Program-made: the position numbers and the translations under genes
The notes under the pieces: generated by a model
What the model was told of the DNA's origin: nothing
What the model saw: the letters and a program-made list of their open reading frames with translations, nothing else
The model's database searches: none
Assembly: GCA_029251525.1 (NCBI GenBank)
Contig: JAQXDE010000039.1
Span: 1 to 64,000 of the forward strand
Source: Saprospiraceae bacterium
GTDB taxonomy: Bacteria > Bacteroidota > Bacteroidia > Chitinophagales > Saprospiraceae
Direction: 5' to 3'
Length of the DNA: 64,000 nt
Part shown: piece by piece, positions 54,311 to 62,409 of the stretch
Layout: each line of letters opens with the position of its first letter
Numbering within the stretch: position 1 is the first letter of the stretch

Positions 54311-56773
54311 CTAGTATAAGTATACTCGTTTTACTCGAGCTGAAATGGTTGGAAAAATTTCATAAGGAATTGTTCCCATAGCAATTGCTAATTCTTCAAC
54401 TGCTGGGTTCTTTCCAAAAATGATTACTTCATCACCTGTTGCAGCCTCTTGAATTTCTGTCACATCAACCATACACATATCCATACAGATATTGCCAATA
54501 GTCTCTGCACGTTTACCTTGAATCAAGACACTAAAGTTTCCGTTGCCAGCAGAACGCATTAAGCCATCAGCATAACCAATACTAATTGTTGCTATGCGCG
54601 TTGTTTTTTTAGCTTTTCCTTTTCGTCCATAGCCAATTGTTTCACCCTTTTTTATATTTTTTATTTGAGAGATAGTTGCTTTGAGTGTGTGTACTTTTTG
54701 TAACTGGTTTTCAATAGTTTTGCTGCCATCAATTCCATACAAACCTATCCCCAGACGAACCATATCCATCTGATACTGAGGGAAGCGGTTAATACCACTT
54801 GTATTTAAAATATGTTGCATTGGGCTAATTTTTAATTCAGAACAAATTTTATTGTACATTTTTTGGAAACGTCTGACTTGAGTTTTGGTAAAGTTATCGT
54901 GTGCTTTATCTTCACTTACTGCTAAGTGAGAGAATATAGATTGAATTTTTATGTGTTTATTTTTTTTCAAAATTGAAATTAATTTTCCCAAATCTTTTTC
55001 TTCAAAACCAAGTCTTCTCATACCTGTGTCCAATTTTAGATGAGTTAAGACTCTTGATTTTTTATTAGAGAAATGTTGGATAAACTTTTCTAATAGTTCT
55101 AAACTATAAATTTCTGGTTCTAAATTTTGTTTTTCCAAAGTTTCAAAGGTTGCTTCCTCAGGATTCAAAACTAAAATAGGTAATTTAATCCCAGCTTTGC
55201 GTAATTCTACTCCTTCATCAGTATAGGCAACAGCAAAATAATCTACCTTTTGAAACTCTAATAATTTTGCTACTTCGATGCTGCCACTTCCATAGGCGGA
55301 AGCTTTGACCATTGCAATGACTTTAGTTTCTGGTCTCAAAAAACTATTGTAAACATTAAGATTTAAAACCAAGGCATTTAAGTCAATTTCTAAAATGGTA
55401 TTATGGTTTTTTTTGGAAAGTCGATCAGCAATTTTTTCAAATTCAAAGATTCTAGCTCCTTTTAGGAGGATATTTTCATTTTGGAAATTAGAGGTTTGAG
55501 CATTTTTCAAAAAGTCTAAGGTCGTTTTGTAGAATTGTGTTTCTATCTTTTGGTCTAATTGTTTTTTTAAAGAAAAAATATTTAAACCAATACCAATAAC
55601 TTTTAAAATTTTTTTGTCTTCAATTAATCTAGCAATTCTTTTGTACAAAATATTAGGACTCATTTCTATCTGCAAGATATCAGATAGGATAAGGGTTCTT
55701 TTATTTAATTCACCTTGCTGCTCAAGATGATTGAGTGCTATTTTTAATGCGGTTAAATCTGCATTATAACTATCATTAATGATGACGCAATTATTTATTC
55801 CTTCCTTGATTTCAAGACGCATCGGGATAGGTCGAAGCTGTTGGTTTTTTTGAGCAATCCATTTATTTTTTTTCTTTAAAAAAAGCAAGACTGCCCAGCA
55901 ATGAATAGCATTTTCAATAGAAGCTTCATCAGTGAAAGGGATCGTAATTGAAATTTTCTTTTTATTATAACTTCCTTCGATAAGAGTTTGTTGTTTTTCC
56001 TTTGAAGTGCTAAATATTTGAAGTTTTGTATTGTCTTTTTTTGACCAAGCAAATAGTTTTTTGCTGTCAAATTGCTGCATTCGTTTATGTACTAAATTAT
56101 TGTCCTTACAATAGATAATGGTTTTGCAGTTTTGAAAAAGTTTTAACTTCTCTTCTAATTTTTCTTCGATATTTTTAAATCCATCACTATGTGCATCCCC
56201 AATATTTGTAAAAACTCCAATATCAGGTTGAATTATTTTTGCAGAAGTTTCCATTTCATTTGTTGTAGAAATTCCAGCTTCAAAAATTCCAAGAGTGTGT
56301 TCTTTTTTAATTAAAAAAACAGACATTGGAACACCAATCTGCGAGTTATAACTTTTTGGGCTGGCAACAACTTGATGATCATTTTGCAAGAACTGCAAGA
56401 GCCATTCTTTTACGATAGTTTTTCCATTGCTACCAGTAATTCCGATTGATTTTAAGGAAAATTGATTTCTATGGAATTGGGCAAGTTGTTGAAGTGCTAC
56501 AACAGAATTCTTGACTAAAATAAAGTTTGCTTTTGGAAAAGAGCGAGTTGCTAACTTTTTTTCAACAATGAAATTTTGAACACCTTTAACATATAGTTGA
56601 CTTATAAAATCATGTCCATCTCGACGTTCACCTTGGATTGCAAAAAATAATGAGGAGCTAGGGAAACTTACTTGGCGACTATCAAATAATAAATGTTCAA
56701 TAGAAGTGTTTAAAATTTTCTTTTTCAAGAAAACCCCACTAGTTAATTTTGCTATCTTATGAATATTATACAT
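54311..56773 (-). CDS. bifunctional MurF / alanine racemase
   Basis: From the ATG at 56773 the protein has 820 residues and joins two enzymes. MurF (about 1-445; P-loop GITGSNGKTIVKEW near 105) adds D-Ala-D-Ala to the UDP-MurNAc-tripeptide. Alanine racemase (about 455-820; PLP lysine in AMVKASAYGSGS, second catalytic Tyr in GIGLYGIDGS) supplies D-Ala. Such MurF-Alr fusions are known in Bacteroidota. The alternative GTG at 56794 adds only seven residues. It is the last gene of the operon that begins with bactofilin; the biotin carrier gene lies 27 bases upstream. The terminator after it was not identified. Confidence 0.92.
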   Translation of the reverse strand: MYNIHKIAKLTSGVFLKKKILNTSIEHLLFDSRQVSFPSSSLFFAIQGERRDGHDFISQLYVKGVQNFIVEKKLATRSFPKANFILVKNSVVALQQLAQFHRNQFSLKSIGITGSNGKTIVKEWLLQFLQNDHQVVASPKSYNSQIGVPMSVFLIKKEHTLGIFEAGISTTNEMETSAKIIQPDIGVFTNIGDAHSDGFKNIEEKLEEKLKLFQNCKTIIYCKDNNLVHKRMQQFDSKKLFAWSKKDNTKLQIFSTSKEKQQTLIEGSYNKKKISITIPFTDEASIENAIHCWAVLLFLKKKNKWIAQKNQQLRPIPMRLEIKEGINNCVIINDSYNADLTALKIALNHLEQQGELNKRTLILSDILQIEMSPNILYKRIARLIEDKKILKVIGIGLNIFSLKKQLDQKIETQFYKTTLDFLKNAQTSNFQNENILLKGARIFEFEKIADRLSKKNHNTILEIDLNALVLNLNVYNSFLRPETKVIAMVKASAYGSGSIEVAKLLEFQKVDYFAVAYTDEGVELRKAGIKLPILVLNPEEATFETLEKQNLEPEIYSLELLEKFIQHFSNKKSRVLTHLKLDTGMRRLGFEEKDLGKLISILKKNKHIKIQSIFSHLAVSEDKAHDNFTKTQVRRFQKMYNKICSELKISPMQHILNTSGINRFPQYQMDMVRLGIGLYGIDGSKTIENQLQKVHTLKATISQIKNIKKGETIGYGRKGKAKKTTRIATISIGYADGLMRSAGNGNFSVLIQGKRAETIGNICMDMCMVDVTEIQEAATGDEVIIFGKNPAVEELAIAMGTIPYEIFPTISARVKRVYLY

Positions 56774-56800
56774 TGAAAAAATGTCAAAAATCACAAAAAA

Positions 56801-59995: not shown

Positions 59996-61081
59996 TTAGT
60001 TATTTTTCATTTTCCAAATTGCTCCATATTCCTCAACAAGTATATTATCGTAATAATCAGCTTTCTCAAAAAGGTATTTGAACAAATTCATTCCAGTATC
60101 CATATTCAAGTAACGATCGTATATAAGTAAAGACAAAATAATATCATCTTCTTTGATACTAAAAGTAAGGCCTTCAATTTCATAGTTTTGCTTCAATAAA
60201 TATTCATAGAGGGGATTTATATCGTCTTTTGGTAAACGACAAAGCCTAGCATCTCCCATGATTAGACCAGTTTTTTCATGATATGATATCTTAATTATGG
60301 CACTTCCTTCAGTGATTTCCCAATGATTTCGACCAATTCTAGAAAGTCTAACGTTATGTCCCATAGAATCTAAAAGTTCTTCCATTGTTTTTGAAACCCC
60401 AAGAGCCTCGTATTCATCAATTTCTGATGGCATTTGGATTTTACTACCGCAATAAGGACAGTTATTTTCATTTACTATTTTTTCAAAAACAATATTTCTA
60501 CAAGAGCTACAACGAATTCCAATTTGATTCTCAGTTTCTTGAAACTCTTTAATTGTTCTTTGTAGATAATTTACAGGAAGTGAAAATCCTACATTATTTC
60601 CATTTTGAATAACAAAGGTATTAATACCTATTATTTTTCCATCTTTGTTAATAAGTGGACCACCACTATTTCCAGGATTAAGTGCAGCATCATGTTGTAT
60701 GTAGTGGAGATCATTTTTTTCTTCTTCAATATTGGAAATAATGCCTTGCGCAGCAGAGTATTTTAGGCCAAAAGGGTGCCCCACGGCTGTGACTACTTCT
60801 CCTGGTTCCATTTCTTTACAATCACTTAATTCAACTGCAGGTGCGTCAATGATATCAGGCGTTTGTAAAAAGGCTAAGTCATGATGAATATCCGAGAAGA
60901 TTACTTTGGTTATTTGTTTTTCGAAACCTTCTCCATTGATAACGACTTCGCGGTTATCTCTGATAACATGTTCGTTTGTAACGATAAGGTTAGCATCTTT
61001 TATATAAAAACCAGTTCCTGTACTATAAGGAGTAGCAATCTGAACAATAACACTTTTATATAAATTAATTATTTCTTTCAT
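59996..61081 (-). CDS. trypsin-like protease with zinc ribbon and YbjN-like tail
   Basis: The 361-residue protein has no signal peptide, unlike HtrA/DegP. A serine-protease domain (about 10-180) has the triad His38 (TNEHV), Asp68 (HHDLAFL) and Ser139 (NPGNSGGPL). A zinc ribbon follows with Cys191, Cys194, Cys208 and Cys211 (CSSC...CPYC). The C-terminal region (about 230-361) resembles YbjN/type III chaperone-like folds. There is no PDZ domain. It is probably cytoplasmic and may be regulated by its tail. Its start overlaps the stop of the upstream gene by 4 bases (ATGA), so the two are translated together. Confidence 0.75.
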   Translation of the reverse strand: MKEIINLYKSVIVQIATPYSTGTGFYIKDANLIVTNEHVIRDNREVVINGEGFEKQITKVIFSDIHHDLAFLQTPDIIDAPAVELSDCKEMEPGEVVTAVGHPFGLKYSAAQGIISNIEEEKNDLHYIQHDAALNPGNSGGPLINKDGKIIGINTFVIQNGNNVGFSLPVNYLQRTIKEFQETENQIGIRCSSCRNIVFEKIVNENNCPYCGSKIQMPSEIDEYEALGVSKTMEELLDSMGHNVRLSRIGRNHWEITEGSAIIKISYHEKTGLIMGDARLCRLPKDDINPLYEYLLKQNYEIEGLTFSIKEDDIILSLLIYDRYLNMDTGMNLFKYLFEKADYYDNILVEEYGAIWKMKNN

Positions 61082-62409
61082 GCTGTTTTCGTCAAATCAA
61101 GGTTTCGAACCATGATTAAAAATGATTTTGCAAAATTGGTTAATGTATCAAACTTCAACAAACTTTTATCTGGATTCATCCGACCATATAATTCCTCATT
61201 GTTATCCTTAATATCATTAATGGCACGTTTTATTGCTTTTTTGTCGAAAGTATTTTTTTCTGAATCATAGTAATTTAAAGTGTAACCTAAGTCCTTAAAG
61301 TAATCCGTTTCAACTATTTGATAATATAAATGGAATAATTCTCGATCAGGGTGAGGAGCAGCAAAATTGAACATACAATATCCTACAATATACCCTGGAA
61401 TACCTATTGCAATTGAATGATAATTATGTTCATTGTACCAATCCATATTATGTAATTCACCATCAATAAAACCTACAATGCGATCATGATTTACAGGTTT
61501 AGTGATTCCGAAAGTAGATTTTGTCAAATACATTTCTAAGAAATACTCTTCTTTTGTTCTTCCCAATAGTTTCCTTAATTCTTTTCGTATAGTAACATTT
61601 TTTTGAGCAGGATTTTTTTTATCTGTTGTAAAATAAATACGATGAATTCGTTCCAAAGTCTCCATCATAAAACCTTCTGGTTTGGTAAGGTAATCGAGCT
61701 TGTAACTTAGGTTTAATAAAACATAAGCATAGCCCCCAGGGTATTTATCCAAACTAGGTTTTCCACTATCCATTGCTGCGAATGCAGTATTGATTTCATT
61801 GATGACATATTTATATTTGACCTCTTTTTCTTGTAGTGGAAGATTAATTAAATGGATTGTGTCGACAGGATTTAACATTCTAAATTCATCAATTAAAATA
61901 TCATCCAATTTATCAGCATTAGTTGCTAATTCTTTGAGGGCATAATATAATTTATAAGGAGATCCATCTAAAATATATGTGTCAAAACGAATTGAAATAT
62001 TATTATCAGGATCGAGTGCGAAACGGCTGTAGCGAAGTGAAAAATTTCGTTCCATTAATCGACGCATAAAACCGATATTGAGTATTTCAGTTTGTGCAAC
62101 TTTAGCTTCGATAGTAACTTTCTCTATGTCTGCAATGCCTGTTGCTTTTTTTGAACCCTGGAAAACCTCAAAATGGATTTTCCCATTTTCCACTTTCCAA
62201 ATAACGTTGTCCTCAAAATCATCACGGAGATAATTGAAGAATTCCAAATATGAGGCAATGTATTGTTCTTTTTCAAATAAGTTCAATGCTTTGTCCCACG
62301 AATCATATTGTTTCGCATCTTTGTAAGAATCACTATACCGTCCAAAACTTACTTTAGGTTGTGGTTCTTTTTTCTTACCTCCTCTAAAAAGTTGATCAAA
62401 AAAACTCAT
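61078..62409 (-). CDS. YbjN-like protein paired with the protease
   Basis: The 443-residue protein starts MSFFDQLFRGGKKKEPQP, with no signal peptide. The region about 50-190 has the YbjN/type III chaperone-like pattern (IWKVENGKIHFEVF, RLMERNFSLRYSRFALD, LYYALKELATNADKLDD). The C-terminal half (about 195-443) is helical and not recognised. It is the upstream partner of the trypsin-like protease, with a 4-base overlap, which itself has a YbjN-like tail. A joint protease/adaptor or substrate-binding system is inferred. No catalytic motif was found in this protein. Confidence 0.6.
   Translation of the reverse strand: MSFFDQLFRGGKKKEPQPKVSFGRYSDSYKDAKQYDSWDKALNLFEKEQYIASYLEFFNYLRDDFEDNVIWKVENGKIHFEVFQGSKKATGIADIEKVTIEAKVAQTEILNIGFMRRLMERNFSLRYSRFALDPDNNISIRFDTYILDGSPYKLYYALKELATNADKLDDILIDEFRMLNPVDTIHLINLPLQEKEVKYKYVINEINTAFAAMDSGKPSLDKYPGGYAYVLLNLSYKLDYLTKPEGFMMETLERIHRIYFTTDKKNPAQKNVTIRKELRKLLGRTKEEYFLEMYLTKSTFGITKPVNHDRIVGFIDGELHNMDWYNEHNYHSIAIGIPGYIVGYCMFNFAAPHPDRELFHLYYQIVETDYFKDLGYTLNYYDSEKNTFDKKAIKRAINDIKDNNEELYGRMNPDKSLLKFDTLTNFAKSFLIMVRNLDLTKTA

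Follow-up and report, generated by a model that had tools for sequence, protein, structure and literature searches.

A TY-Chap-fold protein and an HtrA-like protease encoded as a conserved gene pair: a candidate intracellular chaperone-protease unit in Bacteroidota

The window analyzed here is a stretch of 64,000 nucleotides from a Saprospiraceae bacterium (assembly GCA_029251525.1, contig JAQXDE010000039.1). On its minus strand lie two consecutive genes, which we call A and B. Open reading frame coordinates place gene A at 61078-62409 (443 aa) and gene B, which follows it, at 59996-61081 (361 aa). The A product comprises a TY-Chap-fold domain and a helical half, and the B product, as assigned by Pfam and the AF2 model, comprises an HtrA-like protease, a zinc ribbon and a TY-Chap domain. 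The stop of A and the start of B overlap by 4 bp (61078..61081, minus strand), in agreement with an initial annotation made from the sequence alone. Upstream of A is a divergent GSCFA gene, and downstream of B is a PorP/SprF gene. The spacing between A and B is below 50 bp in 59 of the 66 adjacent pairs that were measured.

The AF2 model of A is confident (pLDDT 91, pTM 0.88). Residues 50-182 (61864..62262, minus strand) form a TY-Chap domain, which resembles YbjN and the type III chaperones. In a Foldseek search with A, residues ~50-180 matched T110839 (2plg), ExsC, CesT, AmyR, YbjN and BacA with a probability of ~1.0 and E values from 1e-4 to 3e-2, and nearly all of the best structure matches listed for A are solved structures of type III chaperones or of YbjN-family members; the same program found nothing credible among viral structures. 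The AF2 secondary structure of residues 195-443 (61081..61827, minus strand) is entirely helical. This half of ~250 residues gave no credible match in Pfam, in PDB sequences or among the listed structure matches, and is thus as unrecognized as the initial annotation had described it.

Residues 1-13 of A (62371..62409, minus strand; MSFFDQLFRGGKK) form a terminal hydrophobic peptide, delimited by alignment and the AF2 model, and are the sole part of A with a pLDDT below 50. The peptide is conserved, and the alignment gives its family form as M-[GS]-[FL]-[FL]-[DN]-[RK]-[LI]-F-G. In a divergent subfamily, A', a near-identical equivalent (KKGFFSKLFG-like) occurs at the C-terminus in 10 proteins; the GFFxKLFG-like peptide is thus N-terminal in A and C-terminal in A' (L205, L206, L216-L219, L292-L294). 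Since its letters are kept despite the switch of protein end, the sequences suggest that it may serve as a tether or docking peptide. The hydrophobic moment of the N-terminus is 0.41 versus 0.32 for shuffled sequence, which does not clearly support a membrane-binding helix, so tethering of A is a guess.

Residues 12-182 of B (60536..61048, minus strand) form a trypsin-like protease domain of the HtrA type. Pfam Trypsin_2 matches residues 22-153 with an E value of 9e-30, and the closest relatives among PDB sequences are HtrA1, HtrA2, DegP and DegQ, which cover residues ~16-197 only; Foldseek likewise retrieves HtrA proteases, so that HtrA1 and DegQ are recovered by both sequence and fold. The catalytic residues are H38 (60968..60970), D68 (60878..60880) and, within the motif GNSGGP, S139 (60665..60667), all on the minus strand; they are present in 114/119, 119/119 and 112/119 full-length relatives, respectively. 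The protease domain is followed by a zinc ribbon at residues 188-214 (60440..60520, minus strand), C191-x2-C194...C208-x2-C211, which is found in 119/119 relatives. In a 17-row alignment the triad and all four cysteines (C191, C194, C208, C211) are invariant. Bacterial HtrA proteases are known as envelope enzymes that read their clients via PDZ domains. The sequence matches to B end near residue 180-200, where an HtrA protein would run on into its PDZ domain; neither Pfam nor NCBIfam matches a PDZ domain in B, and its C-terminus adopts another fold.

No signal peptide was found in B. The first protease strand begins at residue 12 in the AF2 model and, across the 119 relatives of B, the nearest start methionine lies most often exactly 19 residues upstream of residue 20; both the model and the relatives therefore leave an N-terminus too short for a leader. 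We infer that the products of A and B reside in the cytosol. The intact His/Asp/Ser protease, the absence of a signal peptide and of a PDZ domain, and the CxxC...CxxC ribbon had all been proposed in the initial annotation, and each of these claims stands.

The C-terminal part of B, residues 222-356 (60014..60418, minus strand), is a second TY-Chap domain, assigned from its AF2 secondary structure, hhalign, invariant residues and weak Pfam matches in relatives. Residues 228-352 follow the order alpha-beta3-alpha-beta2-alpha with a long last helix (AF2, pLDDT 89), which is the element order that the BacA paper states for the family of type III chaperones (PMC10948618). Moreover, hhalign aligned the B C-terminal profile with the A N-terminal profile across 108 columns at a probability of 95.8% and an E value of 6.7e-9, whereas the same B profile gave no match to the helical half of A. 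In some genomes A and B proteins match each other directly, and the two profiles cross-detect. Residues R248, W254 and G259 of this domain are invariant in 119/119 full-length B relatives. A YbjN/type III chaperone-like domain in each protein, as first proposed, is therefore borne out by Foldseek for A, by the element order for B and by hhalign homology between the two, and structure analysis of the proposed regions places the TY-Chap fold in both.

The sequence signatures of this fold are faint in the pair. A and B of the window match none of Pfam PF22551, PF22550 and PF10722. Relatives of A give sub-threshold matches to TY-Chap1 and CesT_Tir_1, relatives of B give weak matches to TY-Chap1 and YbjN, and pair members elsewhere reach at best an E value of ~3e-5 with the TY-Chap models, under the cut-off where it is shown. 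In contrast, two lone TY-Chap relatives (L115 and L114) exceed the Pfam cut-off. Profile searches of PDB sequences with the two TY-Chap domains and with the helical half of A returned chance-level matches only.

A and B belong together, and are kept jointly even where their genes lie far apart. Relatives of A were found in 105, and the B C-terminal half in 104, of 199 related genomes, most of which are incomplete metagenome assemblies: both are present in 100, A only in 4, B only in 3 and neither in 92 (Fisher 2e-47; odds 275 within the family). Three of the A-only genomes either are incomplete or have A at the end of a contig; the sole clean exception is G019, a nearly complete genome with A and without B. 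Among the B-only exceptions are G029, with a remnant of 45 aa interrupted by a stop, and G166, where a match of 25% identity lies within an 868-aa frame. A was also detected in two culturable relatives, Flavilitoribacter nigricans and Phaeodactylibacter xiamenensis. The genome profile sampling covered Bacteroidota; of 296 genomes drawn evenly from this phylum, 13 carry A, all of them together with B, while 2 B-only genomes carry a lone ~160-aa TY-Chap protein. A and B are adjacent and on the same strand in 65 genomes, and present but apart in ~35. The co-occurrence and conserved adjacency across Bacteroidota that the initial annotation had put forward for survey are thus observed, with 100 genomes holding both genes versus 7 holding a single one among the 199. 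Given this conservation and co-occurrence, chance can be discarded as the source of the observed arrangement.

Shared neighbourhood accounts poorly for this pattern. Two vertically inherited genes might merely sit in one conserved neighbourhood with no functional tie, and a common A-B-PorP/SprF-bactofilin block in ~11 of 35 fetched A loci would suit such an explanation. However, co-occurrence also holds for separated genes, the pair is found again in further families and in further classes, and the GSCFA gene, which adjoins A in ~20/35 of the same loci and was used as a control, is unassociated with A (odds 1.6, p 0.49). We regard the lack of any functional tie as extremely improbable. A third conserved partner was sought in the 35 loci and none was found; the recurrent neighbours obey two lineage-specific gene orders and were therefore dismissed as synteny.

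The two genes also diverge in concert. As a rough proxy of rate we took the identity of each copy to that of the window, with GSCFA and an 827-aa frame that fuses MurF and alanine racemase (window 54311-56794) as controls; the latter matches in 199/199 relatives, mostly near full length. The partial rho between the divergence of A and that of B is 0.76 with MurF-Alr corrected for and 0.73 when GSCFA is corrected for as well, compared with 0.30-0.37 between A and GSCFA; since the species compared are related to one another, the identities are non-independent, and it is the contrast with the control, and not the p-values at face value, that matters. With fast lineages omitted, the A-B covariation is 0.52. 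Additionally, the copies outside the family, the A'-B' subfamily excepted, group together as one clade in each of the two trees (support 100 for A and 99 for B), which indicates that the pair moved or was inherited jointly.

Taken together, we favor, with a probability of roughly 0.55, a reading in which the A and B proteins are the two subunits of a single intracellular unit of chaperone and protease, pairing via their TY-Chap domains and cleaving client proteins. By analogy with the homo- and heterodimers of type III chaperones, A and B would pair through their homologous TY-Chap domains, and the pair would bind unfolded or peptide-like client segments. The TY-Chap domain of B with its zinc ribbon would replace PDZ as the client reader and hold the client beside the protease domain of B, which would then cleave it. 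The helical half and the terminal hydrophobic peptide of A may provide client choice or tethering, for example at the inner membrane face. Physical pairing, client binding, cleavage and tethering are what we infer; A may in addition regulate B, and the homologous domains could also stem from an old duplication without pairing. Counting against this reading are G019, with A but without B, the Bernardetia plasmid described below, with B but without A, and the fast evolution of A in several protease-less lineages.

A different division of labour between the two proteins has to be weighed, in which A is a dedicated inhibitor or zymogen-like partner of B, much as antitoxins or chaperones keep a dangerous intracellular protease in check until stress frees it. 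The pair would then act as a proteolysis switch that stress triggers or that limits itself, possibly a defensive one. As B is not confined to any compartment, a protease of this kind would be expected to be restrained, and the tight coupling and co-occurrence of the two genes fit such an arrangement. Models of defence libraries, moreover, match the protease domain of B (RT-Protease_XI, E 2e-20; LmuA, 9e-9). The strong matches to defence proteins, among them RT-Protease_XI, LmuA and PDC-M35A, are, however, confined to the generic trypsin region; an RT domain is absent from B, and none of the defence models matches A. The pair is inherited across most of one family at ~50% identity, unlike a mobile defence system, and no relative of A was found in plasmid, phage or viral-contig collections. 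The clean A-only genome and the ~35 separated pairs are also unlike a toxin-antitoxin unit. An inhibitor role for A therefore seems to us quite improbable.

Among the plasmids of all bacteria, B was found in Bernardetia only, on plasmid NZ_CP147018.1 (0.6 Mb; L191 5001-6080), at 47% identity and with no A on the plasmid. A Deinococcus plasmid match (H2, 87% coverage) was rejected as an ordinary exported DegP-type protein with a hydrophobic leader, a PDZ-like C-terminus by eye and no TY-Chap match, and a Stanieria match (H3) was set aside for lack of a TY-Chap match. The 73 viral-contig matches to B are generic trypsins, and the TY-Chap domain occurs in 0 of them.

The protease is the part of the pair that is lost. 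In 14 cases the catalytic site has disappeared, either through point changes or because the protease domain as a whole is gone, while TY-Chap is retained. Eight of the 119 full-length B proteins are without His and/or Ser, and 7 of these show a visibly disrupted GNSGG motif; in six further genomes (G070, G116, G030, G051, G040 and G108) the TY-Chap protein adjoining A has no recognizable protease domain. Five of these six proteins are only 131-145 aa long, that of G070 being 142 aa; that of G108 retains the ribbon. On the tree of A, parsimony gives ~13 changes of protease state, although many forks are poorly supported; 7 changes were forced on well-supported branches, in a run that wrongly scored L047 as protease-dead. 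G006 and G116, which share a genus code, have opposite protease traits. The zinc cysteines and R248/W254/G259 (119/119) are more invariant than the catalytic Ser and His. Since TY-Chap is kept while catalysis is lost in 14 cases, the conserved core is the TY-Chap pair, and the protease is a tool that the pair usually has but can do without. The constant retention of the TY-Chap pair argues that a non-proteolytic role probably exists, at least in lineages without an active protease; there the A/TY-Chap pair would persist as a chaperone or sequestering complex. The "regulated proteolysis module" of the initial annotation thus fits most members, but not these 14 cases, in which catalytic residues or the entire protease domain are absent beside A.

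The same losses raise the question of whether proteolysis is secondary throughout. The pair would then be mainly a non-proteolytic chaperone or scaffold whose HtrA domain acts as a platform for binding, for which MamO offers a precedent as an HtrA protease that has become a scaffold for metal (PMC4794232). The 14 cases, the ~13 inferred changes and the greater invariance of ribbon and TY-Chap residues all speak for this possibility. Nevertheless, His and Ser are intact in >90% of full-length B, which indicates that most lineages experience selection for proteolysis. Furthermore, A itself evolves faster in several protease-less lineages (29-34% identity versus 42-47% for the control), including most of those with domain loss, which may reflect decay or relaxed constraint more than a retained second role, or else a changed role. 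We consider a mainly non-proteolytic pair unlikely, and retain the chaperone-protease unit as the preferred reading.

Individual genomes combine these states. G063 holds one A-B pair, one A'-B' pair and one A'-B' pair with a dead protease (L219, L260, L290), and G030 holds a protease-less pair together with two more B-type matches (L212, L289, L291). The B relative of G108 (L214 1886-2875) consists of ribbon and TY-Chap preceded by an N-terminal ~165 aa that the protease profile of the family misses. This stretch was suspected to be a decayed protease, but the profile gives no detection.

Known superfamilies account for each component of the pair; what is new, as far as the open-access literature goes, is their combination together with the partner. 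B shares with HtrA, DegP, DegQ and HtrA1 the protease fold, the triad order and GNSGGP, and these proteins are its best sequence and fold matches; it differs from them in lacking a signal peptide and PDZ, in carrying a ribbon and TY-Chap instead, and in having an obligate-looking partner gene. Residues 50-180 of A and 222-356 of B share the fold of the TY-Chap superfamily (CesT, ExsC, SycN-YscB, YbjN/AmyR, DR1245, BacA/YjfI), but here the domains are fused to a large helical half or to a protease, with no secretion system. No type III effector or secretion apparatus lies beside the pair, whose neighbours are GSCFA and PorP/SprF, and the 35 loci show no other recurrent partner.

Multi-gene systems with similar parts have been described. 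The ARG-centric conflict systems combine TY-Chap1/2/3, an ADP-ribose processing centre and variable nuclease effectors, and resemble the pair in having predicted peptide-binding TY-chaperones; the available part of that account reports no HtrA-TY-Chap fusion (PMC9503650). VMAP/MoxR-vWA ternary systems with trypsin and Trypco1/2 likewise place a cytosolic trypsin-like peptidase beside a dedicated neighbour gene, but require MoxR and vWA proteins (PMC7159879), whereas the A-B pair has no adjoining MoxR or vWA gene and the Trypco domains fail to match A. MamO is an HtrA pseudoprotease of the magnetosome with a metal-binding protease domain and a transporter domain (PMC4794232); the B family resembles it in repeatedly losing HtrA catalysis while retaining the protein. 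No description of such a two-gene system was found in the open-access literature, where a subscription paper could be missed, and this agrees with the initial annotation, which knew of none. It is possible, and we propose it only tentatively, that the pair represents a new class of cytosolic chaperone-protease, namely a heterodimer built on TY-Chap domains, one of whose subunits bears an HtrA protease located outside the envelope, with the protease repeatedly switched off and the pair kept.

If the preferred reading of a chaperone-protease unit is true, a widespread intracellular HtrA protein with a chaperone fold and a dedicated partner would constitute a non-ATP-dependent arm of cytosolic proteolysis in Bacteroidota. 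It would also tie the type III-chaperone fold to client handling, where the non-secretion members YbjN, DR1245 and BacA are without a clear biochemical role. The repeated natural knock-outs of the protease provide a ready means to part the chaperone role from the protease role.

A further arrangement of the fold was observed in another family of the phylum. In G385, a PspA/IM30 gene (Pfam E 5e-52) stands directly before a lone TY-Chap1 protein (E 5e-11; L115 640-1863), which is a relative of the domain of A. This arrangement recalls the BacA/YjfI-PspA pairing of Proteobacteria and ties the fold to membrane stress.
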